64,000 nucleotides of DNA from Aquimarina sp. AU58. GTDB lineage: Bacteria > Bacteroidota > Bacteroidia > Flavobacteriales > Flavobacteriaceae. The notes beneath the pieces are model-generated. The model had not been told where the DNA came from. It saw nothing but the letters and a program-made list of their open reading frames with translations, and ran no database searches. The position numbers were made by a program, and so were the translations under genes. The DNA is taken from assembly GCF_900312745.1 (NCBI RefSeq), contig NZ_OMPD01000009.1, forward strand, positions 682,001-746,000, written 5' to 3'. This document shows, one piece after another, positions 9,771 through 34,375 of this stretch (its first letter is position 1; each line of letters starts with the position of its first letter).

Positions 9771-10062
9771 GCTAACAATGGTATATGTATATCAGTACAC
9801 ATATACCCGGTAGGTATTTATAATTGTTTACAAGCGTTTATTTATATTATAAAACTCACGCTTATCAAGGTTTTTAATCTTTTAATTACTCAAAGCTACC
9901 ATTATCTTTTTGATATAGTGATGGTAATGTATATGGCAGGGAATTTTTTATTTATTTGAGTATCGTTATCGAATTATAACTCTGCGCTGTCGGGTAGAAA
10001 ATCCGTGAGGGTTTTTGTAAGTAAGCTAGCACTAGCGACTAATCATATACCTTGTTATGTGC
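9771..10062. repeat. attC-like spacer repeat (long form, about 290 bp)
   Basis: The left end GCTAACAATGGTATATG and the right end CATATACCTTGTTATGTGC are near-perfect inverted repeats. Inside are a second palindrome (GTATATG...CACATATAC, about 9780-9808) and the shared module CTACCATTATC...GTGATGGTA. It fills the 313-base gap between sulfatase and serine hydrolase; no gene is in it. The arms look like integron attC ends, but the inner part is longer than usual (57-141 bases). Confidence 0.65.
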
Positions 10063-10069
10063 TGGTTTT

Positions 10070-11716
10070 TTAATTCAACAGCACAGGAAGAATATACTCT
10101 TCAAATATTTCCCGTGATTGGTTACCTTTCCTATTCCTATAATTTCCTGCTGTTATTACAACTACCGATTCTAGCGCAGGAACTATAAAAATAAATTGCC
10201 CCCCGGCACCTCGTGCTTCAATAGATGTAATTGCTTCTTCATTGATGATATAGGTATCATGCCACCATAGATAACCATATTCATTTTTATCTCTTCTATC
10301 CTGCAATCTTGTATGTTTCTTGAAAGACTCTCTTATCCAATTTTCTGAAATAATTCGTTTGCTATTCCATACACCTTCATTTAGATAAAGTTGCCCAAAC
10401 TTAAGCATATCCCTTGGGGTTAAATGAAACCCACCTCCAAAATAAGGTATGGCTTTTGTATCGTCGGTATTCAATATGTAATTTGTAATTCCCAGAGGTG
10501 AGAAAAGCTTATCAGCCATATAAAATTCTAAGGGTACATCTAATCGATTACTTAAATAAACGCCAAGTAAAAATGGGTTTGCAGACCCATAATCGGCATA
10601 AGTTCCAGGATCTTTTACCATAGGTGCTTCAAGTACCGTTTTTAACCAATTATTTGATTCTTGGTAGTACTCTTCATATGCTTTGTTATTTACATCTAAT
10701 CCAGAACTCATCGTCAATAAGTCTTTGATGGTTATTTTAGATTTTAGGGCATCTTTTGTATACTGATATTCTTGAGGGATAAAATCATATAGTTTTTTGT
10801 CGACATTCTCTATAATTTTATCATCAATGGCTATACCGATGATGGCAGATGAGATACTCTTTGAGGCAGAACGCATACCGTGCGGAATATTAACATTGAA
10901 ACCTGCAAAATATTTTTCATAAGTGATTTTACCATTTTTTGCAATGAGTACTCCCTCTATTCCGACTAGACTATCATTACGAATATCTTCTTCCATTTTT
11001 TGTAGTACTAATCCATTTTTTGATAACTCCCAGCCGTCGTTTATTTGAGAATTCTTATCTATTGAAGCAGTCTTTTTATACTTTGTGATTTTTTTAAATG
11101 ATGTTTTTGTAATAAAATTCCCTTCTAGACTAATATTTAATACAACTTCAGAGGGTTTTAATAACCCTTCAAATTCAAGGCCTGTATTAGAATCTGTAAA
11201 TGAAATAGAATTATTCTTTTTCTTAAAATTATTGCACCAGAGATTTCCAAGAATTGGGTAAGCTCGATATTCATCATCAGATCCACCACCTTCTTTTATC
11301 GTTAAACGCAAAGATTGAGGCTGTAGATAATGAATTACCGATAGATTCCACTTCCCTTCAAAATGATCTCCTCTTTTATAGAGCTTAGCAGGGTACAAAT
11401 ACCGCTTTGATTTCATAAAACCGTTTATTTCTGATTGCCCGTCATTAACTATTCCACTAAAAATAAGGTTATCACCTAATGCAAGATTGATTCTATTATC
11501 AAATTTGAATTTTTTCGTTATAATTTCTTTGTTATTTGAAAGTGTAAAAACGGCATCTTCTTCACTCAGTTTTTTAACGATTATGTCTAGGTTAAGGGCG
11601 TCTTTGTTCGTTGTTTTTCCTTCCCATTCTCCTATAAAATCTACTATATTTTGTTGAGCACAGCTTGTAAAAAATGAGAAACATAACAAGAGTGATAACG
11701 CTAAATTTTTAAACAT
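10070..11716 (-). CDS. Serine hydrolase, beta-lactamase/DD-peptidase (class C) family lipoprotein
   Basis: 548 residues. Lipoprotein signal ending FFTSC. Residues about 25-215 form a strand-rich N-terminal region of unknown role. The C-terminal half is a beta-lactamase-like domain: SxxK in SASKSISSA near residue 283-286 and an active-site Tyr in YADYGSAN near 376. GAGGQFIF near the end replaces the usual KTG-type box. Such proteins are usually esterases or peptidases rather than antibiotic-resistance enzymes. It ends 8 bases from the spacer repeat. Confidence 0.87.
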   Translation of the reverse strand: MFKNLALSLLLCFSFFTSCAQQNIVDFIGEWEGKTTNKDALNLDIIVKKLSEEDAVFTLSNNKEIITKKFKFDNRINLALGDNLIFSGIVNDGQSEINGFMKSKRYLYPAKLYKRGDHFEGKWNLSVIHYLQPQSLRLTIKEGGGSDDEYRAYPILGNLWCNNFKKKNNSISFTDSNTGLEFEGLLKPSEVVLNISLEGNFITKTSFKKITKYKKTASIDKNSQINDGWELSKNGLVLQKMEEDIRNDSLVGIEGVLIAKNGKITYEKYFAGFNVNIPHGMRSASKSISSAIIGIAIDDKIIENVDKKLYDFIPQEYQYTKDALKSKITIKDLLTMSSGLDVNNKAYEEYYQESNNWLKTVLEAPMVKDPGTYADYGSANPFLLGVYLSNRLDVPLEFYMADKLFSPLGITNYILNTDDTKAIPYFGGGFHLTPRDMLKFGQLYLNEGVWNSKRIISENWIRESFKKHTRLQDRRDKNEYGYLWWHDTYIINEEAITSIEARGAGGQFIFIVPALESVVVITAGNYRNRKGNQSREIFEEYILPVLLN

Positions 11717-11792
11717 AATTTAAGTTTTAATTGGGTTCAAAAGTAGCGTATTGATATTTACAAAAATTGTATCAGATTAACATTGCTATTTT

Positions 11793-12596
11793 TTATGTAA
11801 TTCTTTTTCGGTAGAAACTGGGATTCATATTAAAATGGGATTTAAAGACACGGTTAAAATGGCTTTGATCAGAAAAACCTGTTTGATATGCAATTTTAGT
11901 CAACGAGTTACTTGGGTCGAGCAGTAGAGGTATAGCTTTTTTTAATTTATGTTGCCTTACATACTCTCCAAGACTTGTAGAGAGATATTTTGGTGCTGCC
12001 CTTGAGATATGAACGGGATGTACTCCTAGTTGATCCGAAAGGTATTGTAAGCTAAGGTTTGAATTATCGAAATGAAGTAATTCTTTTAGATCATTTATCC
12101 AGTTTGGGATATTTTTGAGATTGGTTTCTATTAATCCACTTAATGCTTCACAAATTTGTAATAATAGAACCTCTACAGAAACCTCGCTGTATTGATCAGA
12201 GTTTATAAATTCATAATATAATTTTGCAAAAAGAAAATGTACTTGTGGGTTTTGAATTAATAGACTCCCTTCAAGTAAATCCAAATCTATCCCATTAGTA
12301 TCCAACCATTTTTTTTGAAATTCTAAATGAAAACCATTAGCATTTTTAGAATGTTTAGAGCCATAATGAACTTCTTGCCAATTATTAAACATTAAGCTTC
12401 CTGATGGGCACAAGGTCTTCACGTTCTTATTACAATCCATCATATCACCATTTAGAATATACCAGAAATATGGGTTTTCGTGGTAGTGCCAGTCTGTTCT
12501 GTCTTTTTTATAATCGTATTGTGATAGCAGAATCCCACCAAATGATTTTTCAGAATCCTTTATTCCATAATATTTTCCCTTAGTTAATATCTTCAT
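11793..12596 (-). CDS. AraC-family transcriptional regulator with cupin-like N-terminus
   Basis: 267 residues. The N-terminal sensor contains DWHYHENPYFWYILNGD, a cupin-like metal/ligand fold. The C-terminal DNA-binding part has LSLQYLSDQLGVHPVHISR and SLTKIAYQTGFSDQSHFNRVFKSHF... (two helix-turn-helices) ending MNPSFYRK. It is cytoplasmic. The serine hydrolase gene lies 76 bases downstream on the same strand with no full spacer repeat between them, so the two may be a regulator-target pair carried together. The inducer is unknown. Confidence 0.88.
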   Translation of the reverse strand: MKILTKGKYYGIKDSEKSFGGILLSQYDYKKDRTDWHYHENPYFWYILNGDMMDCNKNVKTLCPSGSLMFNNWQEVHYGSKHSKNANGFHLEFQKKWLDTNGIDLDLLEGSLLIQNPQVHFLFAKLYYEFINSDQYSEVSVEVLLLQICEALSGLIETNLKNIPNWINDLKELLHFDNSNLSLQYLSDQLGVHPVHISRAAPKYLSTSLGEYVRQHKLKKAIPLLLDPSNSLTKIAYQTGFSDQSHFNRVFKSHFNMNPSFYRKRIT

Positions 12597-12709
12597 TCTA
12601 AGTCGGGCTTGTACATTACGTTTATTATTTATGTCGTAACAGAGTAAAGTTACAAAACCATCGACAAATCTGTGTTTTTATATAATATAACACTCACATT
12701 TATTATTTT

Positions 12710-12765
12710 ATGTAGGCGATGAGTATTGTATTACACGGATTTAAGGTGCAAATCAGCGCTTTCGG
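12710..12765. repeat. CGGATT...AAATC spacer module
   Basis: The spacer 12597-12781 contains TGTAGGCGATGAGTATTGTA then CACGGATTTAAGGTGCAAATC, a module also found at 13200, 17760, 19350, 22500 and 24298. The CGGATTT and AAATC(CG) parts are inverted. The outer arms seen at other sites are weak here, so this may be a decayed site. Confidence 0.55.
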
Positions 12766-12781
12766 TTTTTTGGGTTTGTTG

Positions 12782-13198
12782 TTAGTAATGTGAATAGAGG
12801 ATTGATAAGCGATCCCAATCCAAATTGGCAATTGCATTGAGATTTTCTTCACTAATAGGTAAAGCATAATTATTCTGAAACCAAACAATTACTAGTGTTG
12901 AACTATTTTCTAGATCATTAATTTCTTCATATCTAAACCAACCAATACATACAACTTTGGGTAATTCTTGATGTCTTTCTCCTTTTTTATTGATCCATTC
13001 TGATTTGATTTCTTGCTTAGGTTCTATAACATGAACGGGTATTTTTTTCCACCTTTTTCTCAAATCTGTTTTTATCCTTTCTATTTCTCGGTCATTATAA
13101 CTTTGAGTAGGAACACCTTCTATTAACCTATCATAAGTCTCCCATTGCGTTAATCGGAAAAGTCCAGCCTTTCTATTATTTGAGATTTTGAATTTCAT
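12782..13198 (-). CDS. Hypothetical protein, 138 residues
   Basis: I do not recognise a family. The protein is soluble and mixed alpha/beta, with a basic middle (RIKTDLRKRWKKIPVHVIEPK), two tryptophan-rich strands (VVCIGWFRYEE, LVIVWFQNNYALPISEE) and an acidic C-terminus. There is no signal peptide. It lies between spacer modules on both sides (12710-12765 and about 13199-13245), consistent with a single-gene cassette. Confidence 0.7.
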   Translation of the reverse strand: MKFKISNNRKAGLFRLTQWETYDRLIEGVPTQSYNDREIERIKTDLRKRWKKIPVHVIEPKQEIKSEWINKKGERHQELPKVVCIGWFRYEEINDLENSSTLVIVWFQNNYALPISEENLNAIANLDWDRLSILYSHY

Positions 13199-13270
13199 AG
13201 AGTGTATTGCACGGATTGCAAATGTGCGTTGTCTGGTAATTAATTTTATATGGTATTGTGAAACGTATTT

Positions 13271-13780
13271 TTATAAATTCTGTTTTAATTTTTTAAAGCA
13301 AAAGTCAGACTCGAATATCTTACATATTGATTTAATCAGTTTCTTCGCTTGTGTTTTGTTATTTATCGGAATATAAACTTTATTAGCACTATTCCAGTTA
13401 TGAGTGAAATTCAGTTCAACAATCAGATTTGCTTTATTCCACTCAAATTTGTCAGGCGAATTTATACTTTCATATTTGTTATTTTCCATATTCAAATACA
13501 ACTTATCCAACAGCTTTCTTGAAGTCAAAATTTCAATAATTTTCGAGCTCTTTATTGAATCCGTTTTTATATCTCCACACTGTTCCATTGTCAAATCTTC
13601 AACTTCCCATTCCTTTGTATAGATTCCTATTGAAAAATCATTATTTGGGATTATCAAATTTGCACATAAAACCTTAGAAGATTTCTTGATGTCAGAAAGA
13701 GTTTTTTCATACGTAATTTGATTTTGTGAAAACGAAAACGTAAAGATGAAAAGGAGTAATATATTAATCGTAAACTTCAT
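13271..13780 (-). CDS. Hypothetical secreted protein, about 169 residues
   Basis: The ATG at 13780 is chosen; the frame extends two codons further to a TTG. An N-terminal signal peptide (KFTINILLLFIFTFSFSQ) suggests periplasmic export. The mature part contains VLCANLIIPNNDFSIGIYTKEWEVEDL and a lysine-rich C-terminus with two cysteines (SICKIFESDFCF). No family is recognised. The short spacer 13199-13270 upstream of its neighbour carries a CGGATTGCAAAT module. Confidence 0.7.
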   Translation of the reverse strand: MKFTINILLLFIFTFSFSQNQITYEKTLSDIKKSSKVLCANLIIPNNDFSIGIYTKEWEVEDLTMEQCGDIKTDSIKSSKIIEILTSRKLLDKLYLNMENNKYESINSPDKFEWNKANLIVELNFTHNWNSANKVYIPINNKTQAKKLIKSICKIFESDFCFKKLKQNL

Positions 13781-13827
13781 TCTCAAATGTTTACTAATAA
13801 GGGTATATGTACGATTGTTATATCGTA

Positions 13828-14391
13828 TTATAAACTTGCTTTTATTCGTTCGGTTATTTCGTTAATTGATCCAAGTCCGTCAAAAGTTTTGACCTCGAGT
13901 TTTGATTTCATATATTCAATAGCTGATCGTGTTGAATCTTCAAAAACCTCTATTCGTTTTATATGAATTTTAGGATCTTTATCATCTTTTCTGTCAGATG
14001 TTTCTGCTCTTTTCTTGGCTCTGTTTAAAAGTTCGGATTTAGGAACATCGATATTTAAAACTTTTCCAATTTCCATATTTTTTTGATCAACCAATTCAAT
14101 TAGATCATCAACCTGAACCTCTGTTCTGGGATAACCATCTAGAATTATCCCACCGTTAGCCTTATTTTCATCAAGGATTTGACCAAATAATTCTTTCATT
14201 ATAGAATCAGGAACTAAATTACCTTTTTCTTCATACTCAGACATTATCTTTCCGATTCCGGTTCCGTTTTCTTTTTCAAATCGACATCGATCTCCAGTTG
14301 AAATATGCTTAAAATCTAGTTGCTTATTTAAAATTTCGCATTGTGTTCCTTTTCCAGAATAAGGTGGTCCGGTAATTATTAGTATTTCCAT
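13828..14391 (-). CDS. Nucleoside monophosphate kinase, adenylate-kinase-like
   Basis: 187 residues, the length of short bacterial or eukaryotic-type adenylate/UMP kinases without a zinc lid. P-loop GPPYSGKGTQ at residues 8-17, HISTGD (NMP-binding), DGYPRT (substrate-binding Arg) and RAETSDRKDD (short lid with arginines) are visible. It would transfer phosphate from ATP to a nucleoside monophosphate in the cytoplasm. Its position among accessory genes, away from hpt or secY, suggests it is not the housekeeping adk. The true substrate is not clear from the sequence. Confidence 0.85.
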   Translation of the reverse strand: MEILIITGPPYSGKGTQCEILNKQLDFKHISTGDRCRFEKENGTGIGKIMSEYEEKGNLVPDSIMKELFGQILDENKANGGIILDGYPRTEVQVDDLIELVDQKNMEIGKVLNIDVPKSELLNRAKKRAETSDRKDDKDPKIHIKRIEVFEDSTRSAIEYMKSKLEVKTFDGLGSINEITERIKASL

Positions 14392-14432
14392 CTATTTTTC
14401 TTCTTACTTATATAATGTTAACAATTGTTTTT

Positions 14433-15386
14433 TCAATAAGAATGACCAGGAGTCATCATCCTAAAGTCATTGGTTATCTTTATATTTTGAGTATATACTT
14501 GTTTATTTTTTAATACACCTTCTATTAGTAAATCTTTTTCGGTTCTAGTATCATTTTCTTGTGGCTGCATAAATGAAAAATCTATAGCGCCTTTATACTC
14601 TTCTATAGCGCCTTCTATTTCTGTTTCAATTTGATGAAAAGAAAAATCCCCGGGGCTATACTTTAAAGCTTGTATTTTTTCTGGTTGGTTGTAGCTGGGA
14701 AATTGATCTTGATATGTTTTAAGAGTAGCTCGAAAAGCTTCTTCAGAATTGGCGATTAATTTACCACCATTAATTGCTAAAACATAAAACGTTTGATCTT
14801 TATGGTTTTTTCCAAAATTTTCTAAGCAAATAGCCCAGGTAATCAATCGCTTTTTTACTTTATCTTTATCAACGAAGTCGAATGGAGATTTTGGCTGACC
14901 TTTTAAAAAGCCTTCCATCATACCGATATATGCGGGTTCGTAATACATTTCCTCTGCAAGTTCTAAAGCAGTTCCATATTCTCCTTTTTTATTAGGATCG
15001 GCACCATGATGTAATAGAAGATGTACCATCTTTACATTACTATTGCCTGTTGCTCTTTGCAGAGCTGATTGACCATTATGTAATACATCGACAGATACTC
15101 CACTCTCCAGAAGTATGTTTACCTCTTTCAAACCTTTATCTTCAGAAGCGAGAGCAACTAATACCTCTGCTTGATCTTCAATATCAGAGTTTTCTATAAT
15201 TAATTTGGTGATTTCAGACGATCCATCGTGTTTGATTTGTGATAAAACGGCCAATTCAAGTGGCTTTTTCCCATATCCGTCTGGGGATTTAAGAGTCATT
15301 GTATTAAAATGCCCACCTTCATTTATATAAGACCTCAAAAATTCTATATTACCAGAAAGGATAGCTTTACTTAACTTTTCTTCCAT
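14433..15386 (-). CDS. Ankyrin-repeat protein with C-terminal uncharacterised domain
   Basis: 317 residues from ATG 15386 (MEEKLSKAI); the frame is open further upstream to 15455, but that part lies in the spacer repeat. Residues 1-170 hold ankyrin repeats, for example GQSALQRATGNSNVKMVHLL then HHGADPNKKGEYGTALELA. The remainder (TFYVLAINGGKLIANSEEAF, FSFHQIETEIEGAIEEYKGA) resembles a DUF4303-like domain; that is a weak guess. Ankyrin plus such domains often occur in immunity or toxin-related loci. No signal peptide, so cytoplasmic. Confidence 0.8.
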   Translation of the reverse strand: MEEKLSKAILSGNIEFLRSYINEGGHFNTMTLKSPDGYGKKPLELAVLSQIKHDGSSEITKLIIENSDIEDQAEVLVALASEDKGLKEVNILLESGVSVDVLHNGQSALQRATGNSNVKMVHLLLHHGADPNKKGEYGTALELAEEMYYEPAYIGMMEGFLKGQPKSPFDFVDKDKVKKRLITWAICLENFGKNHKDQTFYVLAINGGKLIANSEEAFRATLKTYQDQFPSYNQPEKIQALKYSPGDFSFHQIETEIEGAIEEYKGAIDFSFMQPQENDTRTEKDLLIEGVLKNKQVYTQNIKITNDFRMMTPGHSY

Positions 15387-15395
15387 CTTAATTAT

Positions 15396-15590
15396 TGTTA
15401 ACGTTCTGTGTATGAAACGTAGCAATTTTAAAAGTACTATATTTCGGATAAGCACAGAGCCGAATTTTATGTTCTGATTTTACTTTTTCTATTTTAAAAG
15501 CCAAATTTAAAAATTTGGCGGTTTTTGCAAATAAGCACTAACCTTTTGATTTACAATTATTAGCAATGTTTTATACACCGTGTTAAGCAA
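15396..15590. repeat. attC-like spacer repeat (about 190 bp)
   Basis: The left arm TGTTAACGTTCTGTGTATGA pairs imperfectly with the right arm TTATACACCGTGTTAAGCAAC. On the plus strand the right core is GTTAAGC, an exact match to the integron core GTTRRRY. Inner hairpin CCAAATTTAAAAATTTGG is at about 15501-15518. The stop codon of the next gene lies inside the right core, so gene end and repeat overlap. Confidence 0.7.
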
Positions 15591-16371
15591 CGTAATTTTC
15601 TTTCCAATCATTGATTTCAGCAATTAATTTTGGATATAAGCAAGATGTTTTTCCGTCTTGTGAAACCAAAATTTTAATTGTATCTCCAATTGATTTATTG
15701 TTGGTTAAGGCAAAATTATTAGACCTCGATTTGGAGACATTATTTTTATATTCATAATGTACATCCATCGACATTCCAAATTTTGAAAATGTAAATCCTT
15801 TATTGTGGCTTATTGAAATTATTTTACCCTCTTTAATTCTTCCAGTTTTGTAAAGATAAATTTCCTTCTTAATCCGAGAGTATAGAAGATAGCAAAAAAC
15901 TAACCCGACCAATAAAAATACCAAAGCGACATAATAGATAAAATCGAAACCGAAGGAATATTGTTCGAATTCGGTTGGAATAGATTTTCCATCCAAATGT
16001 TTAATTGGAATTATATCACCTTTCTTTAGTTTATTAGTTTTCTGAGGATCGAAAACATTAAATTTAGATTGTTCTTTTTCTCCGTTTGATTCAAATTCAT
16101 AAGTCAAAATTTGAGGATTATCACCATTAATAGTGATATTGTTAACTGACTCTATATTGATTAAAATAGCATTTTCTTTAATTCCATTAGATTCTATTTC
16201 CTCTACATTATCAACATAAGGTAAATCACTTTTAAATGAGTTTATCATCAGAGCTAAGGGGATGAAAAGGAACAATGTAAATGCAATTCCTTGAAACGAA
16301 ATAAGTAATAAAATTGGTCTAATCTTGGCGCGTTGCCATATGGTTTTAAGGTTAGTTTTTCGGTACTCCAA
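15583..16371 (-). CDS. DUF3592-like membrane protein
   Basis: 262 residues from a TTG at 16371 (RKTNLKTIWQRAKIRPILLL follows); no ATG gives a sensible start before the first membrane helix. Two transmembrane segments, about residues 18-42 and 148-165, flank an extracytoplasmic domain (NAILINIESVNNITINGD). The C-terminal GRIKEGKIISISHNKGFTF and MDVHYEYKN, and DTIKILVSQDGKTSCLYP, fit the DUF3592 pattern. Function unknown. Its last codons and stop lie inside the downstream spacer repeat. Confidence 0.72.
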   Translation of the reverse strand: MEYRKTNLKTIWQRAKIRPILLLISFQGIAFTLFLFIPLALMINSFKSDLPYVDNVEEIESNGIKENAILINIESVNNITINGDNPQILTYEFESNGEKEQSKFNVFDPQKTNKLKKGDIIPIKHLDGKSIPTEFEQYSFGFDFIYYVALVFLLVGLVFCYLLYSRIKKEIYLYKTGRIKEGKIISISHNKGFTFSKFGMSMDVHYEYKNNVSKSRSNNFALTNNKSIGDTIKILVSQDGKTSCLYPKLIAEINDWKENYVA

Positions 16372-16413
16372 TGTTCTTTTTTTTATGTTCGTTAAGATAC
16401 ATAGTTTTATTTA

Positions 16414-16842
16414 TTAGCTAATTATAGTTTTTGGTTTATCCGTTTTTTCCAAATTAGTCAAATCAAAATTTATTTTTCTTATGCCGTTGATTTTAAACGT
16501 ATTCCATTCATTCATTCTCGTACCTTTAAATTTCCAATATTGCTTATGATTTAAGTTAGGACATTCTATATACCATTCTTCTCCAACTTTATCCAATGTA
16601 GTTAAAGCCCATACAATTGAATCATTGGTTTTTTCAAATTCAGATATTAGATAACAAAAGACGGTGAATTCTTTTACATTACTTTTATAAATTTCCTCAA
16701 TATATAATGGAATTCCAATTGCTTCTTGAATCTGCCTTAATATTCGATTGACCTTTATTTCGTCCTTTACATTCAATTCAATATGAAGATTGAGAGTAGG
16801 AACTTTATTGATGTTTTTAGTTTGGGGCATTATTTCGTTCAT
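16414..16842 (-). CDS. Hypothetical protein, about 142 residues
   Basis: The frame is open to 16884, but the first 14 codons lie in the spacer repeat, so ATG 16842 (MNEIMPQTKN) or 16830 is preferred. The protein is soluble; TLNLHIELNVKDEIKVNRIL suggests a beta-strand/helix start, followed by EEWYIECPNLNHKQYWKFKG. No family recognised. It is 42 bases from the DUF3592 gene, with no repeat between them, so the two may travel together. Confidence 0.65.
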   Translation of the reverse strand: MNEIMPQTKNINKVPTLNLHIELNVKDEIKVNRILRQIQEAIGIPLYIEEIYKSNVKEFTVFCYLISEFEKTNDSIVWALTTLDKVGEEWYIECPNLNHKQYWKFKGTRMNEWNTFKINGIRKINFDLTNLEKTDKPKTIIS

Positions 16843-16852
16843 CCAAATTATT

Positions 16853-17669: not shown

Positions 17670-17756
17670 ATCTTAAGTAGTGACAAATTATATTGGCAAT
17701 TATTATCAAAAATTGATCCGTTTATGTATATCATAAAACTTACACCTGTCAAAGTT

Positions 17757-17797: not shown

Positions 17798-17841
17798 TTT
17801 ACTTTGATATTAGATAAGAATAGATAGTTATCTATATTTAA

Positions 17842-26454: not shown

Positions 26455-26519
26455 GGTTTTTTGTTTAGGTTGCTTATCGTATTGCTGGTATTGTAAATAT
26501 GCGATGTCAGTTTTTCCAC

Positions 26520-28364
26520 CTATTTGCTTAATACTTTCAATATTCTCTCCTCATTAATTACAATATCTCTAAACAAAACATGCGGAAATTCTTGATATTT
26601 CGATGTTTTAAAAGCCTCAAATATATTCGAGAGGGTCGAGGCTGTGATTAAAGACAAATTCATTTCCATGTCCATTCCACAATCGGAAACAAAATCATCA
26701 CTAAACTCTGGTGCAACAAGCAAAATTTTAACAATCCGTAAGTCATTTTTAAGTGCTAAATTTTGATATGATTTTAATTGCCGTGAAACTGCACTAAACT
26801 TATTGTACCCTCTTTCCTTACTGGTTTTACATTCTACAATGATAATTTCGTTATTATTCAAATTTAAAAGAATATCCATCATATCCTTTTGGGTGTTCAG
26901 TTGATTTTTTAACTTATCGTCTACGTCAAAACCTAGGCCTTTGAAAATTACTTTGGTTAAATCCTCGAATTTTATACCAAGCTCACTTTCTTTAACTAGG
27001 ATTCCATTTTCTTTGAGTAAGTTAAGATTGCGATAAGCAACATTTTCATAGTTTTCTAAGTATAAATTATCAACATCTTTGTAATGTTCGAGAATGTTTA
27101 AAATATCATCTCCACGTTGCTTAATCCCGTTGTCTTTTATGAATTCGGTTAAATCTTTTTTTACGATTAAATCTAAAATATCTCTAGGTTTAATATTATA
27201 ATCAATCAAAAAGTCTGCTTTAAGTACAAATTCATCTTGTAACTCAAATTGATCTTTAATCTGTTTATTTATTTTCGGTAACGATTGATTTAACTCAGCG
27301 AGTAACTTGTCAAATCCGTCTAATGAGATACCTACTTTTTCATCACGCTCAACATTCTCGAAATGCCCAATTAAACTATTAATCTTGTCGTCTAAAGTGC
27401 TGCCTTTTAAATTCTTGATATTTAAACCTTTCTCACAAAGTTCATTTAAGATTTTTTTTCTTTCTGTTAGTGTACTTCCTGGTTTGTAAATATCATTCAA
27501 AAGTAGATTTATGAAAGAAACACCTTCTTTGATTATTTCCTCGATTTTTTGAGAGTATGATAACTTTCTATCAATATTATGTTCTCTTCCGATTTGGTTG
27601 ATAATTGGTTCTCTTAAAAGTTTAAGCGTTCTACGATAGAATTTCTCGGCAACTTCTTTTTCTCTCACTTTACGTAACATTCTAACCATTTCGTCTGCCA
27701 CATAAATGGTATTTTCTTTATTTGAATAAAAAATAACACCAATGTTTTTTAGTCCTTTTATTACATCTTGAATATCAAGTTTTTTGATTGGTAAAATCGA
27801 GTAATTAATCAATTTCATTTCCTCTTGAGAAAGTCCAAGTTGTCTGGCAAGTGTTAGAATTATTGATAATTCATCTGAAGTTATTTTTGCATCTCGGTTA
27901 TTTTCAACATCATTGTGGTAAGCGGTGTGCAAACAAGATTTGTAAATTTTGTAATCTCTTTTTCGTGCTGTGCTTAATTCCGATTTATCATTTTCAAAAT
28001 CTTCGTTGAGTCCTTTAATTCTACTTTTTAGATGTTTGATTTCGTTTTCGTATAATCTCGAAAACCAATCTTGTTTCATAATGCAGTTTCCGTCACGAAT
28101 GATAATGTCAATTAAAATGTCTAATTGCGATGTGATTTCTTGAAATTCACACTTAATGTGTTCTTGAAATTCGTTTGCGGTTAATGCGAAAATCTTCGAT
28201 ATGTTTTGATTGTCAACTGATTTCAGACCTTTGTCTGATGAACTTAAAATCTTGTTGATTTCTTTACCGTTCTTTGGGTTTTTAGATATGATATTGTCGA
28301 TTATTTTGATAAATGAGTTCTTTTCTATCGAACCGAGTTTATCCAGAATCTTTTCTAATTTCAT
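26520..28364 (-). CDS. Putative nuclease with C-terminal PD-(D/E)XK (Mrr-like) domain
   Basis: 614 residues, cytoplasmic. Residues 1-450 are mainly helical and charged, with no recognised domain. The C-terminal 150 residues show a restriction-endonuclease-like core: FEDLTKVIFKGLGFDVD (Glu467), MMDILLNL (Asp497), IIIVECKTS (Glu511-x-Lys513) and a RQLKSYQ motif (Gln529). This is the D...ExK pattern of Mrr-type DNases. It has no partner methylase nearby. It lies next to a Septu-like pair and may be a single-gene defence nuclease; that role is inference. Confidence 0.75.
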   Translation of the reverse strand: MKLEKILDKLGSIEKNSFIKIIDNIISKNPKNGKEINKILSSSDKGLKSVDNQNISKIFALTANEFQEHIKCEFQEITSQLDILIDIIIRDGNCIMKQDWFSRLYENEIKHLKSRIKGLNEDFENDKSELSTARKRDYKIYKSCLHTAYHNDVENNRDAKITSDELSIILTLARQLGLSQEEMKLINYSILPIKKLDIQDVIKGLKNIGVIFYSNKENTIYVADEMVRMLRKVREKEVAEKFYRRTLKLLREPIINQIGREHNIDRKLSYSQKIEEIIKEGVSFINLLLNDIYKPGSTLTERKKILNELCEKGLNIKNLKGSTLDDKINSLIGHFENVERDEKVGISLDGFDKLLAELNQSLPKINKQIKDQFELQDEFVLKADFLIDYNIKPRDILDLIVKKDLTEFIKDNGIKQRGDDILNILEHYKDVDNLYLENYENVAYRNLNLLKENGILVKESELGIKFEDLTKVIFKGLGFDVDDKLKNQLNTQKDMMDILLNLNNNEIIIVECKTSKERGYNKFSAVSRQLKSYQNLALKNDLRIVKILLVAPEFSDDFVSDCGMDMEMNLSLITASTLSNIFEAFKTSKYQEFPHVLFRDIVINEERILKVLSK

Positions 28365-28384
28365 AAAGTTTGATATTTATTACT

Positions 28385-28604
28385 GTTGTTTCTTAAGCTT
28401 GTGTACAATGTCTCGGCTCGTATGTTAGTGCGGGAATTAAAAGTAGTAATCTTTAAATTAAGCACTTAGCCAAAACTTCTTATTTTGTTTTTAATTTTTC
28501 TATTTTAAAAGTCAAATTCAAAAAATTGACGGTCTTTGCAAAGAAGCACAAAACTTTCGGTTTAGCACTTATTAGCTATGTTTTATACATCTTGTTATAT
28601 GTCG
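28385..28604. repeat. attC-like spacer repeat (about 220 bp)
   Basis: Left CTTAAGCTTGTGTACAATGT, right TTATACATCTTGTTATATGTC. The interior resembles the 15396 site (GCACTTAGCCAAAAC, AAATTCAAAAAATTGACGG, GCAAAGAAGCAC). It lies immediately downstream of the HNH gene of the Septu-like pair. Confidence 0.65.
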
Positions 28605-28607
28605 TTT

Positions 28608-29255
28608 TCACAATATTTTTTTATCTTGAAGATAGCATATACACATATAACTAAATTCTTTTTCATTATTACTAAACTCAATAACTTCATTTAAAAGAAT
28701 TGCTTTCAATGCGGGCACATCTTCTCTTTCATATTTGTCAATAAGATTTTGAAGATCAATAATTTTTTCAGTTCTTCTATCAATTAGTTCTTGTCTATTG
28801 AGTTTTATTTTTTTCCAAGTTATTTCTCCTCTTTTACTCTCATTAACGTGCATTAATAGTGGTCCGAAAAAAGATAAATGTTCTGAAATTTTGTCTTTAT
28901 AGGGATTGATTAATTTGGCTTCCTTTTTTTCAACATAGTTTCTTTTTCCATTGTTGCACCAGTAACAAGCAAATGTAAGATTTGACCAATTAAATGTTAG
29001 TCTTGGATATATAGCTTTAGGAATAATATGCTCAATGTCTCCTGGATATTGATGTGTAACTTGGCTTTCACAATATGCACATTTTTCCTTTGTTTCAAGT
29101 TTAATCTGATTTTTGACTTGTATGTGATTGTATTTGTTTTTATCAGAATCTGGTATTTTCTGACCTTTGTTAACATAATCCATCACAGTTTTAGTCCAAT
29201 TCAAAGCATTATCAACTAAAACTTGAGGTTTAGCAAGTTCTTTTAGTTGAATCAT
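28608..29255 (-). CDS. HNH nuclease, Septu PtuB-like
   Basis: 215 residues. A zinc-finger-framed HNH core: C59-A-Y-C62, then GDIEHIIPK (Asp73, Glu75, His76), LTFNWSNLTFACYWCNN with Cys97 and Cys100. This spacing is typical of PtuB-type and TIGR02646-like nucleases that pair with an AAA ATPase. Its ATG overlaps the ATPase stop (ATGA at 29252-29255), indicating translational coupling. In Septu systems the complex cleaves nucleic acid on phage infection. Assignment to Septu rests on gene pairing and motifs only. Confidence 0.8.
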   Translation of the reverse strand: MIQLKELAKPQVLVDNALNWTKTVMDYVNKGQKIPDSDKNKYNHIQVKNQIKLETKEKCAYCESQVTHQYPGDIEHIIPKAIYPRLTFNWSNLTFACYWCNNGKRNYVEKKEAKLINPYKDKISEHLSFFGPLLMHVNESKRGEITWKKIKLNRQELIDRRTEKIIDLQNLIDKYEREDVPALKAILLNEVIEFSNNEKEFSYMCICYLQDKKIL

Positions 29256-30502
29256 TTCTTTTTACTTTTTTGAATTAAATCTGCAACTGAAGTATGAACA
29301 AATTTGTCAAGACCAATTCTTTTTAATTCAGTTTTAAATTGTTCAATATTTTCGGGTGTAATGCCTTTTTCAGAGTATTTATTTAGAATATTATCTATTT
29401 GATTATTGACCCATTCTGGCTTTGTTGAATCTATACCCAAAACATCTCTCAAAATATCATTAGCACTTCCTGTTTTGTCAATATTATCAAGAAGAATAGA
29501 GTGAACTTTATTGTCTTCGTTATAGTTCAAAACATAAACTGTAGAGTCAGGAACTGAGCTTATTATAAAAGGATTATGAGAGGCTACTACAAACTGTGCT
29601 TTAGGAAATGCCTTCAAAAAGTTTGGTAAGAGTGTTTTTTGTATTTCTGGATGTAAATGATTTTCAGGCTCATCAAAGGTTACGCAAAATGGCTGATTAT
29701 TATTTTCAAACATAAATATTTGCCAAGCAAGGTCAATTATTGATGCAATACCACCTGAAACTCCATCCATAGCGAATTCTCCGGATTTTGTCTCTAGAAT
29801 TACTTCTGGTATTCTAATTGATATTTTTTCAAAACCCAATTTTGGCGGTAATACATTTCTCAAAACATCTTCAAAGCCCTCAAAGATTCTTACAGCTTCA
29901 TCATTCCTGCTAACAATTTGATTTCCATAACCAAAAGTTGCTAAAGAAATTAGAGTTTCTTTAATAAAATAAGTTTCAGATTTCTGTATACTGGTTGCAC
30001 CTTGATATCTTTGATGCTTAACACTTCTATAATTCTGATAAGCTATTTGTTTAGATATTGCTTGGGTTGAAATGTTTGGTACGTTTTGATATTTATAAAT
30101 TGGTCTATGGGATGGAATATGAAAACCTGCTATAGGTTGTTGAGAAGAAAATTGTATTCCATATGTTGAACCAACTTGAGTAGGCACAATAATATTAGTA
30201 TCCACACCATTTACATAGCTAATATTACCAACAACATTTTTATTATTACTATTATTATTTGGTGATTCAGAGTTAAAAAGATCTTTCCAAAAATCACTAA
30301 AGAATTTCAATCCGCCAGTCTTTTTGTCTTTCTTTGGTGTACCAACAAGTTGACTAGGCCAACCAAAATGTCTATTTAAAAGGCCAAGTATAGTTGTCTT
30401 TCCAGCTCCATTTGCTCCAGTAATTATTGTCAATCTTGGATGAAAATCAATATCAATATTTTCATATTGCCTCCAAGTATTAATTTTTATTTTTTTAAAC
30501 AT
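29252..30502 (-). CDS. AAA/SMC-like ATPase, Septu PtuA-like
   Basis: 416 residues. Walker A GANGAGKT at 29-36; ABC-like signature VSGG at 248-251; Walker B CVTFDEPENHLHP with Asp277-Glu278; H-loop SHNPF with His309. The insert between A and signature, rich in asparagine near 80-100, is of Septu/OLD-like size. No TOPRIM domain follows, which argues against OLD/Gabija. It is first in a two-gene operon with the HNH nuclease, bracketed by attC-like repeats at 28385-28604 and 30519-30576. Confidence 0.85.
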   Translation of the reverse strand: MFKKIKINTWRQYENIDIDFHPRLTIITGANGAGKTTILGLLNRHFGWPSQLVGTPKKDKKTGGLKFFSDFWKDLFNSESPNNNSNNKNVVGNISYVNGVDTNIIVPTQVGSTYGIQFSSQQPIAGFHIPSHRPIYKYQNVPNISTQAISKQIAYQNYRSVKHQRYQGATSIQKSETYFIKETLISLATFGYGNQIVSRNDEAVRIFEGFEDVLRNVLPPKLGFEKISIRIPEVILETKSGEFAMDGVSGGIASIIDLAWQIFMFENNNQPFCVTFDEPENHLHPEIQKTLLPNFLKAFPKAQFVVASHNPFIISSVPDSTVYVLNYNEDNKVHSILLDNIDKTGSANDILRDVLGIDSTKPEWVNNQIDNILNKYSEKGITPENIEQFKTELKRIGLDKFVHTSVADLIQKSKKK

Positions 30503-30518
30503 TCAGTTTGTTTTTAAT

Positions 30519-30576
30519 GCCATATAACATCCCGTATAAACGGTCGTTTTAATGCCGTTTATACATTGTTACCAGC
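30519..30576. repeat. Compact attC-like site (58 bp)
   Basis: The clearest site. The stem GTATAAACGG (30534-30543) pairs perfectly with CCGTTTATAC (30555-30564) across an 11-base loop; outside it AACA (30526-30529) pairs with TGTT (30567-30570). Unpaired spacers of 4 and 2 bases lie between. This two-box stem with an unpaired spacer and AAC/GTT cores is the layout of an integron attC of normal length (57-60 bases). Confidence 0.75.
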
Positions 30577-30577
30577 T

Positions 30578-31762
30578 TTAATTTTGAGATGATTTTTCAA
30601 TCAAACTAATTAATACATCAAAAGGTATATTAGCATTTCCTCTATATTCTTTCCCTGTATTATTGTCAATTCCACTTGAATGATTACTGTCGTCACCTTT
30701 TCCATTTGCAAACCAAATATTATCTGGATAAAAGTTGTGAAGCCAGAAACCATCAATGATATTGTCTTTCTTGTCTAGAAATAGTGTGTATACATAATTA
30801 TTCTCTTCTACACAGCAGCTGTTTTTAGATTCAATTCTAGGTTTGGTAGCACCATTCATAATGTGAGTACTAATTTCCCCCATATGATAAAAGGTTGTTG
30901 TAAATGTTATGATATGTGTTGAATTAGATGGTGGGTTATCACTCCCCTTTACTTTTCTCTTTTTTTCTAACACTTTTCTTTCAAACCCTAAAGCTGAATG
31001 ATTCCATATTTCATTAGATGAGTTATCGTCAAAAAAGAAAACCTTTTTATTCTCAGCTAAAATCAGTCTAAGTATTAAATCAAAAGCACCAGGATTTGGC
31101 TTGATACTATTATTGCTTCCGACTCTGCCATAGCCATTTGGTGTCAAATAGAAATATGATGCTCCAGCTAATATTTTTAAATCTGCAGCGGTAAATTCAA
31201 TTTCTAGATTATCTGCGTTTTTTACAGTGATATTTTTTATAGGTTCTTTAGTTAAAGCACCCGCAGCCCTAACTCCATTACAAAAACCTTCCCAAGATTG
31301 AATATCTGGAGTAAGTGGTCCTCTAGCTGTTAATTCTCTTTTAGTAATTTTAAAATCCTTATTATTTAGATAAATATCCATTTTCTCAGCGGGAGATAAT
31401 CGAGCTATTTCTTCTTTAGTCATTTCTTTAATTTTATCCCAATTCAGACTTTCAATTGAAGGAAAAGACTCCTCAGATGAATACGAGTTAAGCCTTGTAC
31501 ATAATCCTCCATAAGTCCAAGAAAAATAATCTCCGCCCCAAGGAACATTATTACCGCTGACATAATAATTATCTGTACCAAAGAAAACATCTTTAAATTT
31601 ATCAGTAGTGTTATCGTTAATGGAATATTGATTTCTGATATAATTTTTAATCCAGCATAATTGATTTTCAAAATGTTCAGTCTCTGGATTACATATTTGA
31701 GAAAAAACACTTGTGTAGATTAAATTGACAAGTAGTAGAGTAATAATTGCTTTTGATTTCAT
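30578..31762 (-). CDS. Secreted transglutaminase-elicitor-like protein
   Basis: 394 residues from ATG 31762, which gives the signal peptide KSKAIITLLLVNLIYTSVFS. The combination ARLSPAEKMDIYLNNKDF, then SWEGFCNGVRAAGALTKEPI and YYLTPNGYGRV, followed by a His/Asp-containing region (NHSALGFE, GFWLHNFYPDN), resembles the TGase_elicitor (GP42-like) family with catalytic Cys in FCNG. I am not certain of this match. If right, the enzyme would cross-link or deamidate proteins outside the cell. The paired CC near residue 315 (NSCCVEEN) is unexplained. Confidence 0.6.
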   Translation of the reverse strand: MKSKAIITLLLVNLIYTSVFSQICNPETEHFENQLCWIKNYIRNQYSINDNTTDKFKDVFFGTDNYYVSGNNVPWGGDYFSWTYGGLCTRLNSYSSEESFPSIESLNWDKIKEMTKEEIARLSPAEKMDIYLNNKDFKITKRELTARGPLTPDIQSWEGFCNGVRAAGALTKEPIKNITVKNADNLEIEFTAADLKILAGASYFYLTPNGYGRVGSNNSIKPNPGAFDLILRLILAENKKVFFFDDNSSNEIWNHSALGFERKVLEKKRKVKGSDNPPSNSTHIITFTTTFYHMGEISTHIMNGATKPRIESKNSCCVEENNYVYTLFLDKKDNIIDGFWLHNFYPDNIWFANGKGDDSNHSSGIDNNTGKEYRGNANIPFDVLISLIEKSSQN

Positions 31763-31778
31763 GGTGATAGTTTTTATT

Positions 31779-32052
31779 GCTGGTAACAAACGGGTATAAA
31801 GGATATATATCCTTTATACCCGTTTGTATCTTTTAACCCCCTAAAACTACAGCTACCTTTTTTATTACGGTTACGGGAAACCACATGGTAGGGGAGAAAG
31901 TTTTTTGTATGCGATTTAGGTATCAGGTGTCAGGTATCAGGTGTTAGGTAGTAGGTATGGGGTTTTAGGTGTTGGGTATTGTATTGTACGGATTGCAAAT
32001 CCACGCTTTCGGGTGAGAACAAGCAATTACTGATAGCCATTGTTGGTAATAG
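31779..32052. repeat. Spacer repeat with 42-bp perfect palindrome and AGGT-rich stretch
   Basis: GCTGGTAACAAACGG begins it and CCATTGTTGGTAATAG ends it. Positions 31786-31827 are a perfect palindrome with 21-base arms (ACAAACGGGTATAAAGGATA and its complement) and no loop. Then come the CTACC...CATGGTA module, degenerate tandem AGGTATC/AGGTGTT units at 31915-31976, and CGGATTGCAAATCC. No gene in it. Confidence 0.7.
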
Positions 32053-32916
32053 TTATTTTTCCAAATAATTCCAATCAACGTGAAAATCAACTAACAAGGA
32101 TTCGTCTTTTTTCAAGTTGTATTTAACTAAATGATAAACGCCTTCTGAAATTTTTTCAAGTCCTAAAAGTTTCGTTTTAGTTCCATCCAATTCGAATTTA
32201 TAGGCATCAGGCTCCTTGGTAAAAAGCTTTTTTAATCCAATAATTGAAGAAAAATCAACAATTATTCTGGCTTCTAGTGTATCCATTTCCATTTTCATTC
32301 CTATGTCCTCGTTACCTTCATTAAACCCGTTGTAATAAGTAGTCGCAGAGAAATAGCAATCACTATTATCTACATTTTGTGAAATAGATCCTTTAAGATT
32401 TTTACTTGGTAAGTCGGTAAAGGTCAATTTTTTCCAGGGGAACAAAATGTTTTGGTCAACTATTCCGCTAGACGTATCGGTTAGCTTAATTGAATTATTT
32501 TTAATGTTATATTTATTAAAACGGAAGTAATGATACTCACTGAATACATCAATCTTTTCTTCTAGTCTATCATTATATTTTGTATAAACAGGTCCATCTT
32601 TTGGATTTTTAATATGTAGATATTTTACATATACAGTTTTAGATTCTTGAAGTAATGGGACATTTTTCTTTTCATCTAATTCAAGCTCTAGGCTTTCTTT
32701 TTCCTTTTCCATCGCACTCTCCCAGTCCTTTTTGTTTTTTTCTTGTTCTTTTTGGATTCTAAAAAGTTCATCCCTGTGCTCATTCTCTAGCTTTAAGAGC
32801 TTTTGTTCATTATTGCTTTTATAGTGGCGAGCAATAACAAACCAGCCGAATCCGAGTAATGTTCCGATTCCTGTTAACATGGTTAATAAAGTCTCAATGT
32901 TATAATATTCTTCCAT
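32053..32916 (-). CDS. Hypothetical membrane protein with coiled coil, 287 residues
   Basis: One transmembrane helix near the N-terminus (LLTMLTGIGTLLGFGWFVIA) is followed by a charged coiled coil (about residues 35-90, many E/K). The C-terminal 190 residues are strand-rich (KYLHIKNPKDGPVYTKYNDR, ILFPWKKLTFTDLP). No family recognised. Its ATG starts one base after the stop codon of the GGCT-like gene, so the two genes are co-translated. Confidence 0.72.
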   Translation of the reverse strand: MEEYYNIETLLTMLTGIGTLLGFGWFVIARHYKSNNEQKLLKLENEHRDELFRIQKEQEKNKKDWESAMEKEKESLELELDEKKNVPLLQESKTVYVKYLHIKNPKDGPVYTKYNDRLEEKIDVFSEYHYFRFNKYNIKNNSIKLTDTSSGIVDQNILFPWKKLTFTDLPSKNLKGSISQNVDNSDCYFSATTYYNGFNEGNEDIGMKMEMDTLEARIIVDFSSIIGLKKLFTKEPDAYKFELDGTKTKLLGLEKISEGVYHLVKYNLKKDESLLVDFHVDWNYLEK

Positions 32917-32917
32917 A

Positions 32918-33568
32918 TCACTCGATGTATATTTTATTGAACAGTGACTCGTCTTTTAAGTTATCTTTTAAGTAGGTGTCAATAGTATTTGCATTGGGCC
33001 TATAAATGAATGCTCGCCTAGGGTAAATTCTATCATTTGCCCAAAACTCATTCCAGTGTTCAGTAGATTCTATAAACATTTTGGTAAAGTTTAATTCTTT
33101 AGCCTTATCAAATTTTGCCTCTATTTCTAGACAACCATTAATACACATATCGACATAGGATTGAACAATTGGAAATTTTTTGTTTGGAAAGTTATTTTTG
33201 AGTTCTTTAAAATTGTCAAATTCGTTCAGATATGTCCAAATCTTAATATTAGGATCTTTAATATCAAAGAGAAACTTAATTTTATCTTTATCTAATAATT
33301 CTCTTGAATATCCTTTCTCTCTGCTATCAATATTCTTAATTTCTTCTTCACTAACTTTGTAAATGACTCCGTTGACGATCGATTTAGAATCCTTTATACA
33401 ACCTAAAAAAGTTGTGGATAAACTGTTTCCACCCGTCCTGGCAAACCAACCTCTTTTCAATCCAGACACTATAACTGGATAAACATCTTTTGCATTAGGT
33501 GTAGTTCGCAATCTAGATTCACTTTCGATCAGTGAACCATATCCAAATATGTAGTTTTGTTCTGTCAT
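32918..33568 (-). CDS. Gamma-glutamylcyclotransferase-like (AIG2/GGCT fold) protein
   Basis: 216 residues from ATG 33568 (MTEQNYIFGYGSL); the frame upstream to 33610 lies in the spacer. IFGYGSLIESESRL is the YGSL substrate-binding motif of the GGCT/ChaC/AIG2 fold; VNGVIYKVSEEEIKNIDSRE carries the conserved D/E of the active site (EKGYSR follows). The exact reaction (gamma-glutamyl peptide cyclisation or another amide chemistry) cannot be told. It forms a two-gene unit with the membrane coiled-coil protein. Confidence 0.85.
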   Translation of the reverse strand: MTEQNYIFGYGSLIESESRLRTTPNAKDVYPVIVSGLKRGWFARTGGNSLSTTFLGCIKDSKSIVNGVIYKVSEEEIKNIDSREKGYSRELLDKDKIKFLFDIKDPNIKIWTYLNEFDNFKELKNNFPNKKFPIVQSYVDMCINGCLEIEAKFDKAKELNFTKMFIESTEHWNEFWANDRIYPRRAFIYRPNANTIDTYLKDNLKDESLFNKIYIE

Positions 33569-33937
33569 AATTATTGCTATCGGTCTCGTGTATAGCGAAT
33601 TTCTACTCACAAACCTTTTTTTATGTTTATACTAATAACTTCTACTAGCAAGAAACTTGTAGCGGTAGGAAATCTGGTGTTGCCCAAGTAATTAATATCG
33701 TTATTTCCAAGAGCCTACTTCTTTAACTGTAAAAAGACCTGGGTAAATACATTTTTTAATTTCACGTTAATCACTTAGCCAAATTTTTTTATTTTGTTCT
33801 AAGGCCAAATCAAAAAGATTTGACGGTCTTTATAAAAAGACACTAAACTTTGGGTTAAGCATCAAACTCCTATCAAAATACTTGTCAGAGTTAAAATAGA
33901 GGATACAATTGGAACATATTCGGTCATAAAACGTAAT
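33569..33937. other. 369-base intergenic spacer with partial repeat parts
   Basis: It holds GTGTATAGC near the left and, at about 33775-33865, CACTTAGCCAAA, then GGCCAAATCAAAAAGATTTG and AAAGACACTAAAC, the interior type seen at 15480 and 28460. Good outer arms are not visible. No gene is seen. Confidence 0.45.
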
Positions 33938-34240
33938 TTATCCTCTTACTCCTCCTGTTGCTCTTGGTGGTCTAGGTTTAGGCGGTTTGTCACCACCACC
34001 TCCGTGAGGTCCGTCTTGGGTATGAGCACCATATTCACTCCCAAAATTTACCAGAGCAGATTCTATTTTGTCATATATATTAAAAACCTCCGTTTTTTCT
34101 ATTTTGTCACCAAAAATTTCAGTTCCAATCAAATTAGCAATTGATAGATTTTCTTTAACATAAATTAGAGCTTTTTGCTCTGGAGTCATTTCGTCATTAA
34201 TTGTTCTCAGTACTTCGATATGTTTGTTAATTTCACTCAT
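33938..34240 (-). CDS. Small hypothetical protein with Gly/Pro-rich tail
   Basis: 100 residues from ATG 34240 (MSEINKHIEVLRTINDEMTP); the upstream frame to 34291 lies in the spacer repeat. Residues 1-70 are helical and acidic. The tail after AHTQDGPHGGGGDKPPKP is rich in glycine, proline and arginine and ends in GGVRG. Such a tail could be a flexible linker or a cleaved peptide, but no modification or export genes adjoin it. No family recognised. Confidence 0.65.
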   Translation of the reverse strand: MSEINKHIEVLRTINDEMTPEQKALIYVKENLSIANLIGTEIFGDKIEKTEVFNIYDKIESALVNFGSEYGAHTQDGPHGGGGDKPPKPRPPRATGGVRG

Positions 34241-34259
34241 AATTTTATTTTTAATATTT

Positions 34260-34375
34260 GCTAACAATGATATATATGTATCAGTACACATATACCCGTT
34301 TGTACTTATTTATAATCGTTTACAACCATTTATTTCATCATAAAAACTACTATGGGTATAAATAGTTTTTTCATT
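34260..34375. repeat. attC-like spacer repeat, right end unclear
   Basis: Starts GCTAACAATGATATATATG with the inner palindrome TGTATCAGTACACATATACC, like the 9771 site. The right end near TGGGTATAAATAG at 34353 could pair with the left only weakly. Last recognisable site at the right of the array. Confidence 0.5.

Follow-up and report, generated by a model that had tools for sequence, protein, structure and literature searches.

What kind of element sets 28 genes on one strand of a flavobacterial chromosome and fills the spacers between them with hairpin-forming repeats? The question is raised by a 64,000-nt stretch of Aquimarina sp. AU58 (contig NZ_OMPD01000009.1, positions 682,001 to 746,000; hereafter the window), in which the 28 open reading frames (ORFs) at 8230-34999, taken here as genes, are all on the minus strand, with 24 of the 27 spacers at least 30 bp long. 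A first reading, made from the sequence alone, had seen an integrase-less array of integron-like cassettes, and the ORF listing bears out the unbroken same-strand run on which it was built. The analysis presented here indicates that the locus is very probably what is left of a cassette array without an integrase, belonging to an integron type of the Bacteroidota that had not been recognised. Judged by its sequence, the recombinase of the intact version is without the I2 insert, a part of the protein that integrons were thought to need.

Recombination sites were searched for with two covariance models. Both derive from attC-like sites in the arrays of other genomes; R1 rests on 12 such sites of ~175 nt and R2 on 30 of ~136 nt. 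At E<0.01, six sites were matched in the window array, all on the minus strand and the best at E 1e-30, plus one outside the array (4985-5118, minus), and the plus strand of the window gave no match at this threshold (best 0.29 and 0.73). The six sites score far better than chance, as the proposed covariance check had anticipated, and the two repeats that had been seen to overlap stop codons, at 15583 and 18788, are both among them. The Rfam models, at gathering thresholds, had no match in the window. BLAST with 79 attC sites (72 from other genomes, 7 from an array on contig C2 of the same genome, described below) agrees with the model matches in the window and adds shorter attC pieces at 12609-12666, 32012-32046, 32730-32753 and 33767-33865; further short matches lie outside the array (4303, 48929, 51111). 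A cluster of attC sites lacking an integrase (CALIN) requires two or more attC no further than a few kb from each other and no integrase nearby; here, six lie at 9956-30576, three of them at 15394-20552, and the contig of the window carries no PF00589 recombinase, the five PF00589 matches of the genome all being on C2.

In an integrated cassette, the R' core before the gene derives from the cassette's own attC and is hence the reverse complement of the R'' that follows the gene. Matches of at least six bases beyond GTT/AAC are found for 3 of the 28 window genes (18788-19267, 20559-21431 and 30578-31789) vs 2 of 650 mismatched gene pairs; with at least five bases the counts are 3/28 and 12/650. 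The proposed gene-then-attC units thus keep their signature in three single-gene cassettes and one two-gene cassette (Table 1), while most genes are without it. The gene pair of the latter (28608-30502) is a Septu defence system according to PADLOC (PtuA, E 5.5e-167; PtuB, E 5.9e-71). For the gene at 15583-16371, an intact R'/R'' pair surrounds the homolog in a relative (G001).

Table 1. Sites, cassettes and flanking genes of the array, in window coordinates
Feature	Position	Strand	Remarks
Relict cassette array, 28 ORFs	8230..34999	-	Variable region flanked by conserved genes
Conserved flank gene	37708..39192	-	Present in 45/47 genus genomes
Conserved gene, other side of variable region	1541..4126	-	88-98% identity in G091, G026, G029, G018, G044
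attC, ~175-nt class, 3' of gene 20559-21431	20380..20552	-	R1 E 1e-30; 86% identity to attC of integrase-linked array in another genome
attC overlapping stop of gene 15583-16371	15394..15590	-	R1 E 2.9e-8, R2 E 5.1e-6; 82.7% identity to C2 attC of the same genome
attC overlapping stop of gene 18788-19267	18608..18807	-	R2 E 1e-6; next G091-shared segment begins exactly at R' GTT (breakpoint 18616)
attC 3' of two-gene cassette	28442..28602	-	R1 E 0.002; 81.8% identity to C2 attC
Short attC between genes 30578-31789 and 29252-30502	30520..30576	-	R2 E 3.5e-4
attC 5' half after gene 10070-11716, running into long composite spacer	9956..10062	-	R2 E 0.0011
Solitary attC outside array	4985..5118	-	R2 E 9.4e-12, R1 E 0.0063
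Cassette: GTTACCAGC, gene 30578-31789 (TGase_elicitor family, Pfam), GCTGGTAAC	30568..31787	-	R'/R'' match 6
Two-gene cassette: GTTATATG, ptuA-like 29252-30502 and ptuB-like 28608-29255, CATATAAC	28594..30528	-	R'/R'' match 5
Cassette: GTTGGCAACA, gene 20559-21431 (predicted start precedes GTT), TGTTGCCAAC	20544..21397	-	R'/R'' match 7
Cassette: GTTGTTGTAACA, gene 18788-19267, TGTTACAACAAC	18796..19295	-	R'/R'' match 9
attI-like perfect palindrome, then GTT	31779..31823	-	Arm 16, no mismatch
attI-like palindrome + GTTAGC	34260..34297	-	G026-shared segment extends, by eye, to GTTAGC
attI-like palindrome + GTTAGC	16837..16904	-	44-nt family copy; palindrome scan
attI-like palindrome + GTTAGC, upstream of gene 8230-9756	9769..9808	-	Palindrome scan
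attI-like, diverged	21385..21427	-	44-nt family
attI-like, degenerate	22307..22350	-	44-nt family
attI-like, degenerate	24105..24148	-	44-nt family
attI-like, degenerate	25715..25758	-	44-nt family

The missing recombinase was sought in the rest of the genome. No integron integrase (IntI) over the cut-off was found in a whole-genome search; a tyrosine recombinase of 376 aa is encoded on C2 (3353382-3354509, minus), where it heads an intact array, so that the absence noted in the sequence-only reading holds for the window's contig and not for the genome. Within 200 nt 3' of its stop codon and on the same strand, a palindrome (attI) and a GTT are followed by the cassettes of a 39-kb array. The scan used to score such chains demands mirror R'/R'' pairs together with an attC stem, an earlier version without site structure not being discriminating on long sequence. 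Starting at attI it traced 14 consecutive cassettes, with a chain score of 49.0 against 1.0-3.0 in three shuffles, and it picked up another 3 beyond these. In the first eight, R' and R'' across the gene agree at 53 of 56 positions, a value reached by one of 40,320 pairings, the true one (next best 51), and the matches within a site amount to 0-4 of 7.

The C2 array turns over between fixed ends within one species. Recombinase and attI are 90% identical to those of the conspecific genome G091 up to the GTT of attI, beyond which 38.9 kb here and 20.6 kb in G091 have two segments in common (2236 bp at 98.7% and 938 bp at 95.2%), and past the array the two genomes have a 9.3-kb common flank (95.5% identity). 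By eye, the 2.2-kb segment starts at the T of a degenerate R' and ends in an R''. In the genome as a whole, where 150 of 5909 R1 candidates were scored, 33 matches reach E<=0.01, and 29 of these form six clusters, each of single orientation: 3313-3351, 105-148 and 1925-1930 kb of C2, 318-326 and 371-375 kb of contig C10, and the window; the remainder are three single matches and the reverse strand of a site already counted. In the cluster at 371 kb of C10 (L040:8161-8295), a C-terminal relic of the recombinase (57.8% over 45 aa) immediately precedes an attI-like site, which is followed by a small array on the same strand. A tblastn search of the window for such a relic gave nothing above chance level, the one match, at 48671, having an E of 5.5.

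This recombinase represents a type, which we label BI, of about 376 aa with a XerA-like core lacking the I2 insert and an N-terminal alpha/beta domain of ~77 residues. Its match to the IntI profile TIGR02249 is split between profile positions 8-178 and those from 245 onward and comes to 192 bits, below the cut-off of 265. The distance from the KDR to the HxxR motif has a median of 58 residues in BI (6/58 unreadable by script; outliers to 182) vs 100 in 20/20 IntI-labelled frames, and the alignment also shows the catalytic domain of BI without the insert. In the tree, 34 BI rows lie on one side of a branch (79/93) and the IntI rows in a separate branch (100/99); the placement of locus L162 is unsure because one frame holds two recombinase-like stretches. 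Such stretches are found side by side at L162 (8001-9422), L156, L159 and L165. The extra N-terminal domain, which related recombinases often have, weakly resembles XPB-DRD/HARP folds, with no Foldseek match at E<=0.001.

Homologs are widespread. All 52 genomes searched in the genus match at E<=1e-20, XerC and XerD-like proteins included, and by our own count of the matches listed a long homolog of at least 55% identity occurs in 35 of the 52 (two with one internal stop). Among 395 genomes sampled from the order, those with a match at E<=1e-60 number 84 and represent 46 of 109 genera; this cut includes homologs with the N-terminal part unaligned. Loci with cassette chains come from Aequorivita sinensis, Seonamhaeicola aphaedonensis, Winogradskyella ursingii, Algibacter onchidii and a Rufibacter. 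Less than 1.5 kb lies downstream at 22 of the 89 homolog loci, too little to score. Downstream chains scoring above 4 accompany 17 of the 20 loci with the N-terminus aligned and 2 of the 47 without, namely L162 (five cassettes, 19.4) and L196 (4.6), which groups with canonical IntI. On the upstream, divergent side, 5 of 68 loci score above 4: L193, L197 and L199, which group with IntI, together with L165 (15.2) and L172. The scan thus recovers classic integrons where they are expected and puts the BI arrays downstream of the recombinase.

The intact BI arrays have attC with an AAC/GTT core and an imperfect stem, the R'/R'' mirror and an attI beside the integrase gene with a variable first cassette. 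Pooled over 13 arrays and 98 cassettes, R' and R'' agree at 6.6 of 7 positions across the gene, the chain scan itself selecting cassettes on this match, and at 2.5 of 7 within a site (85 sites). Folding of 79 attC from 13 arrays favoured the bottom strand in 70 (equal in 1, worse in 8), with z below -2 in 63. The spacers are asymmetric: L'' begins 3 nt after AAC in 51/79 and L' ends 5-6 nt before GTT in 64/79. A one-base bulge lies in L'' in 28 of these sites (14/14 in the ~175-nt class) and in L' in 10, and 41 have none. An attI palindrome ending 2-7 nt before GTT was found at 54 of 75 recombinase loci (5-6 nt in 35 of the 54) vs 11 of 225 shuffles; the other 21 have a weak palindrome only. 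The arms vary in sequence between genomes and keep their self-complementarity.

The remaining window spacers are of a different nature. A 44-nt repeat family has seven copies between genes (9755, 16837, 21376, 22307, 24105, 25715 and 34244), and spacers other than those with attC hold a repeat with inner hairpins and an arm like attI, not attC. Contrary to the first reading, the spacers are not of one family; attC sites, attI-like palindromes ending in GTT and the non-attC repeat are mixed. The outer arm GCTAACAATGGTATATG corresponds to a 3' half only and by eye is closer to the attI-like palindromes that accompany the recombinase gene in relatives than to attC. Type-A repeats were likewise tried as attC and rejected, as they consist of the repeat plus an attI-like arm. 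Over the 6.19-Mb genome, with 40 of 65 candidates scored, a 190-bp query that is a copy of the main repeat has eight matches, six of them in this array and all six on the minus strand; it is matched in 9 of 91 genomes searched, this one included, all of the same genus. Clustered in the array, on one strand and, among the genomes searched, limited to the genus, it is not a dispersed repetitive extragenic palindromic (REP) element, the alternative put forward at first, even though the non-attC repeat does fill several spacers.

The attI-like site pattern has 9 matches vs 2.4 expected (1 of 100 shuffles as high), and a strict palindrome scan of the array found 7 on the minus strand vs 0-6 in ten shuffles, with 8 on the plus strand. 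The weaker copies are considered attI-like on the basis of their similarity to one another. The non-attC repeat also carries the motif TTG-N20-TAGYTTTG aimed at the next gene (16921-16952, 21480-21511, 22391-22422 and 24188-24219), possibly promoter-like in view of the promoter consensus. The corresponding pattern ATTG-N18-22-TANNTTTG has 6 matches in the search vs 3.5 expected, no clear excess given that 14 of 100 shuffles are as high, and four of the six are repeat copies. A palindromic repeat rich in G+C (CCCTTCGRC...GGGTACG) and of another type than those of the array has copies at 35113-35330 and 25780-25970.

Gene content and order at the locus vary among related genomes. The two conserved genes that enclose the variable region, which in the window also includes plus-strand genes at 5105-8199, are separated by only ~640 bp in G018 and by ~3.7 kb in G044. 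The stretches compared from G091 (same species), G026, G029, G001, G003 and G019 contain overlapping sets of the array genes, in several cases in a different order. The gene at 17028-17669, for instance, lies after the gene at 17842-18429 in the window, between a glyoxalase and a lipocalin gene in G091, and after the lipocalin gene in G026. Eight array segments of at least 350 bp are shared with G091, and their 16 ends, read by eye, give the boundary check proposed earlier a mixed outcome. One end, at 18616, is exactly on R' GTTAGCAC, preceded by an attC half in the window and an attI-like half in G091, and another (10047) is inside an attC; most are at stop codons or in repeats. Of 26 segment ends vs other relatives, three (34270, 16389 and 25728) were judged by eye to coincide with an R' core or to miss one by no more than a few bases. 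At the same locus, attC model matches number five in G026, two in G001 and one in G029, and the G026 array contains a 3-cassette chain (score 5.8; four shuffles <=3.0). These breakpoints and sites support movement of cassettes in parts of the locus and decay elsewhere in it.

Several observations weigh against the relict-array interpretation and the novelty of its recombinase. Within the window, 25 of the 28 genes show no single-gene R'/R'' match, and the scan for successive cassettes gives 4.0, vs 1.3-4.0 in four shuffles; the few pairs and a chain score no better than shuffles mean that the array is mostly decayed. Its genes have only distant relatives (22-31% identity) among those of the intact arrays and clusters examined. 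Among the G091 breakpoints, 6 of the 8 3' ends have a stop codon no more than 10 nt away, and four of the 5' ends are in repeats. In the array stretches compared from G091, G003 and G019, a site spanning the L206/L207 border not being covered, no attC model match at E<=0.01 lies inside the array; one G091 match (L207:17018) is outside it. Among the BI loci, 3 of the 20 with the N-terminus have no chain, and the 17 that do include the marginal scores 4.8 and 5.6 (single shuffles reached 4.5). NCBIfam and PGAP give some BI members a generic name, 'integron integrase' included, and PMC8138268 already describes the insertion as not fully conserved in an integron-like subgroup of tyrosine recombinases.

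The breakpoints in repeats also lend some weight to a different explanation, in which most window spacers are palindromic repeats, similar to REP or miniature inverted-repeat transposable elements, and gene order varies by homologous recombination between them rather than by cassette recombination. The two-inner-hairpin repeat fills many spacers, and the copy that follows the gene at 17028-17669 in the window occupies the position of what, by eye, are attC-like 5' halves in G091 and G026, halves that the models left unscored. Six attC matches to models trained on other genomes, the R'/R'' mirror pairs, the clustering of the repeat and the one exact GTT boundary speak against it, and we regard this explanation as unlikely, if the strongest of the competitors. 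Less likely still is a hotspot for genomic islands of the usual kind, with a few stray cassettes among genes that arrived by other routes. In its favour are the short distance between the conserved genes in G018 and G044 and the many window genes without attC; against it are the uniform orientation of the 28 ORFs, the attI-like sites before several genes and one boundary or more that coincides with GTT. A CALIN of canonical IntI-type integrons gained by transfer would fit the generally similar attC architecture and the frequency of IntI in the phylum, where 105 of the 395 genomes sampled exceed the cut-off. Among the 107 listed IntI-positive genomes, however, one is of the same class and none of the same order, family or genus (the order's share of the 395 is not given), the window attC are 82-86% identical to those of BI-linked arrays, and with this genome itself lacking an IntI over the cut-off, such an origin is highly improbable. 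Our preferred interpretation thus remains the relict BI-type array, and the original idea of an integrase-less cassette-like array is partly supported: its CALIN-like character stands, with six attC in one orientation, no PF00589 on the contig and gene content and order varying in relatives.

The combined results suggest a model in which the intact type has three parts: the BI recombinase of ~376 aa, with its XerA-like, I2-free core and N-terminal domain; an attI downstream of the recombinase stop codon, its palindrome ending a few nt (mostly 5-6) before GTT; and same-strand gene cassettes, each closed by an attC. By analogy with IntI, attC would extrude as a hairpin from single-stranded DNA, and BI would bind the folded bottom strand and cut at the GTT of R'; the circular cassette would be joined to attI by exchange at GTT, and replication would resolve the junction. 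A circular cassette cut at the R' GTT and inserted at attI would therefore have its own R' before the gene and R'' after it, the mirror seen in the arrays. The cassettes of the window may have come in trans or from a platform since lost, and would then have decayed as other repeats and deletions overwrote their attC. A wider reading is more tentative, and we hold it slightly less probable than its negation: capture of folded single-stranded attC would have evolved, or persisted, without I2, and a XerA-like recombinase with a HARP/DRD-like, junction-binding domain would constitute a second integron lineage across the Bacteroidota. The hairpin attI would in effect be an attC without R'', the attI-like copies in the window would be extra docking sites, and tet(X3), as first cassette of a platform of this kind, would have spread out of the Bacteroidota.

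The last point stems from observations on mobile DNA. A Chryseobacterium plasmid (L236, NZ_CP041688.1) carries a BI recombinase and a two-cassette chain (score 10.0, without shuffle control), suggesting that BI platforms can be plasmid-borne. Just upstream of tet(X3), on the plasmids L235:5001-7064 (FJ012881.1) and L234:2925-4988 (NZ_CP104735.1), lies a shortened recombinase (TnpF) 51.5% identical to BI residues 146-375, and in L235 a 9-bp palindrome, 7 nt and GTTATGTGCCAT follow between TnpF and tet(X3), which is the layout of a BI attI. The 173 bp examined downstream of tet(X3) contain no matching R''. From its surroundings, tet(X3) looks like a first cassette; the recombinase gene upstream of it has been called xerD, with its role left open (PMC7473080, PMC8635130).

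BI and IntI integrons, whether class 1 or sedentary chromosomal, have a recombinase, an adjacent attI and same-strand cassettes in common, as well as attC with R''/L''/L'/R', a GTT core and a better folding bottom strand. BI differs in lying outside the IntI branch, in the spacing of KDR and HxxR (58 vs 100 residues), and in its extra N-terminal domain, palindromic attI and array downstream of the 3' end of the recombinase gene. From XerA, XerC and XerD, BI differs by its N-terminal domain and cassette arrays; Xer acts at dif sites. In Treponema integrons (PMC3607928) the recombinase is likewise transcribed toward the cassettes, but the genes are described as intI. CALIN are already known (PMC9024848, PMC8618304), and the window and two further clusters of this genome (C2:105-148 kb and C10:318-326 kb) are like them in having no adjacent recombinase, PF00589 being confined to five other places on C2. 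Window-type arrays differ in that they are presumably served by a non-IntI recombinase and have many attC overwritten. In the integron-like subgroup of PMC8138268 the insertion is, comparably to BI, not fully conserved, and the same text calls the insertion essential for integron function; published work also regards I2 as necessary for the capture of cassettes, and PMC4792948 states that it has 'not been identified elsewhere'. A search of titles and abstracts, with preprints and most subscription journals outside it, found no report of I2-less integrons in Flavobacteriales.

If confirmed, a widespread integron type without I2 would make the claim that this insert is essential directly testable, and nature would provide, in BI and IntI, two ways of solving the same problem that can be compared. 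The window, in turn, would show how a cassette array of the BI type decays.

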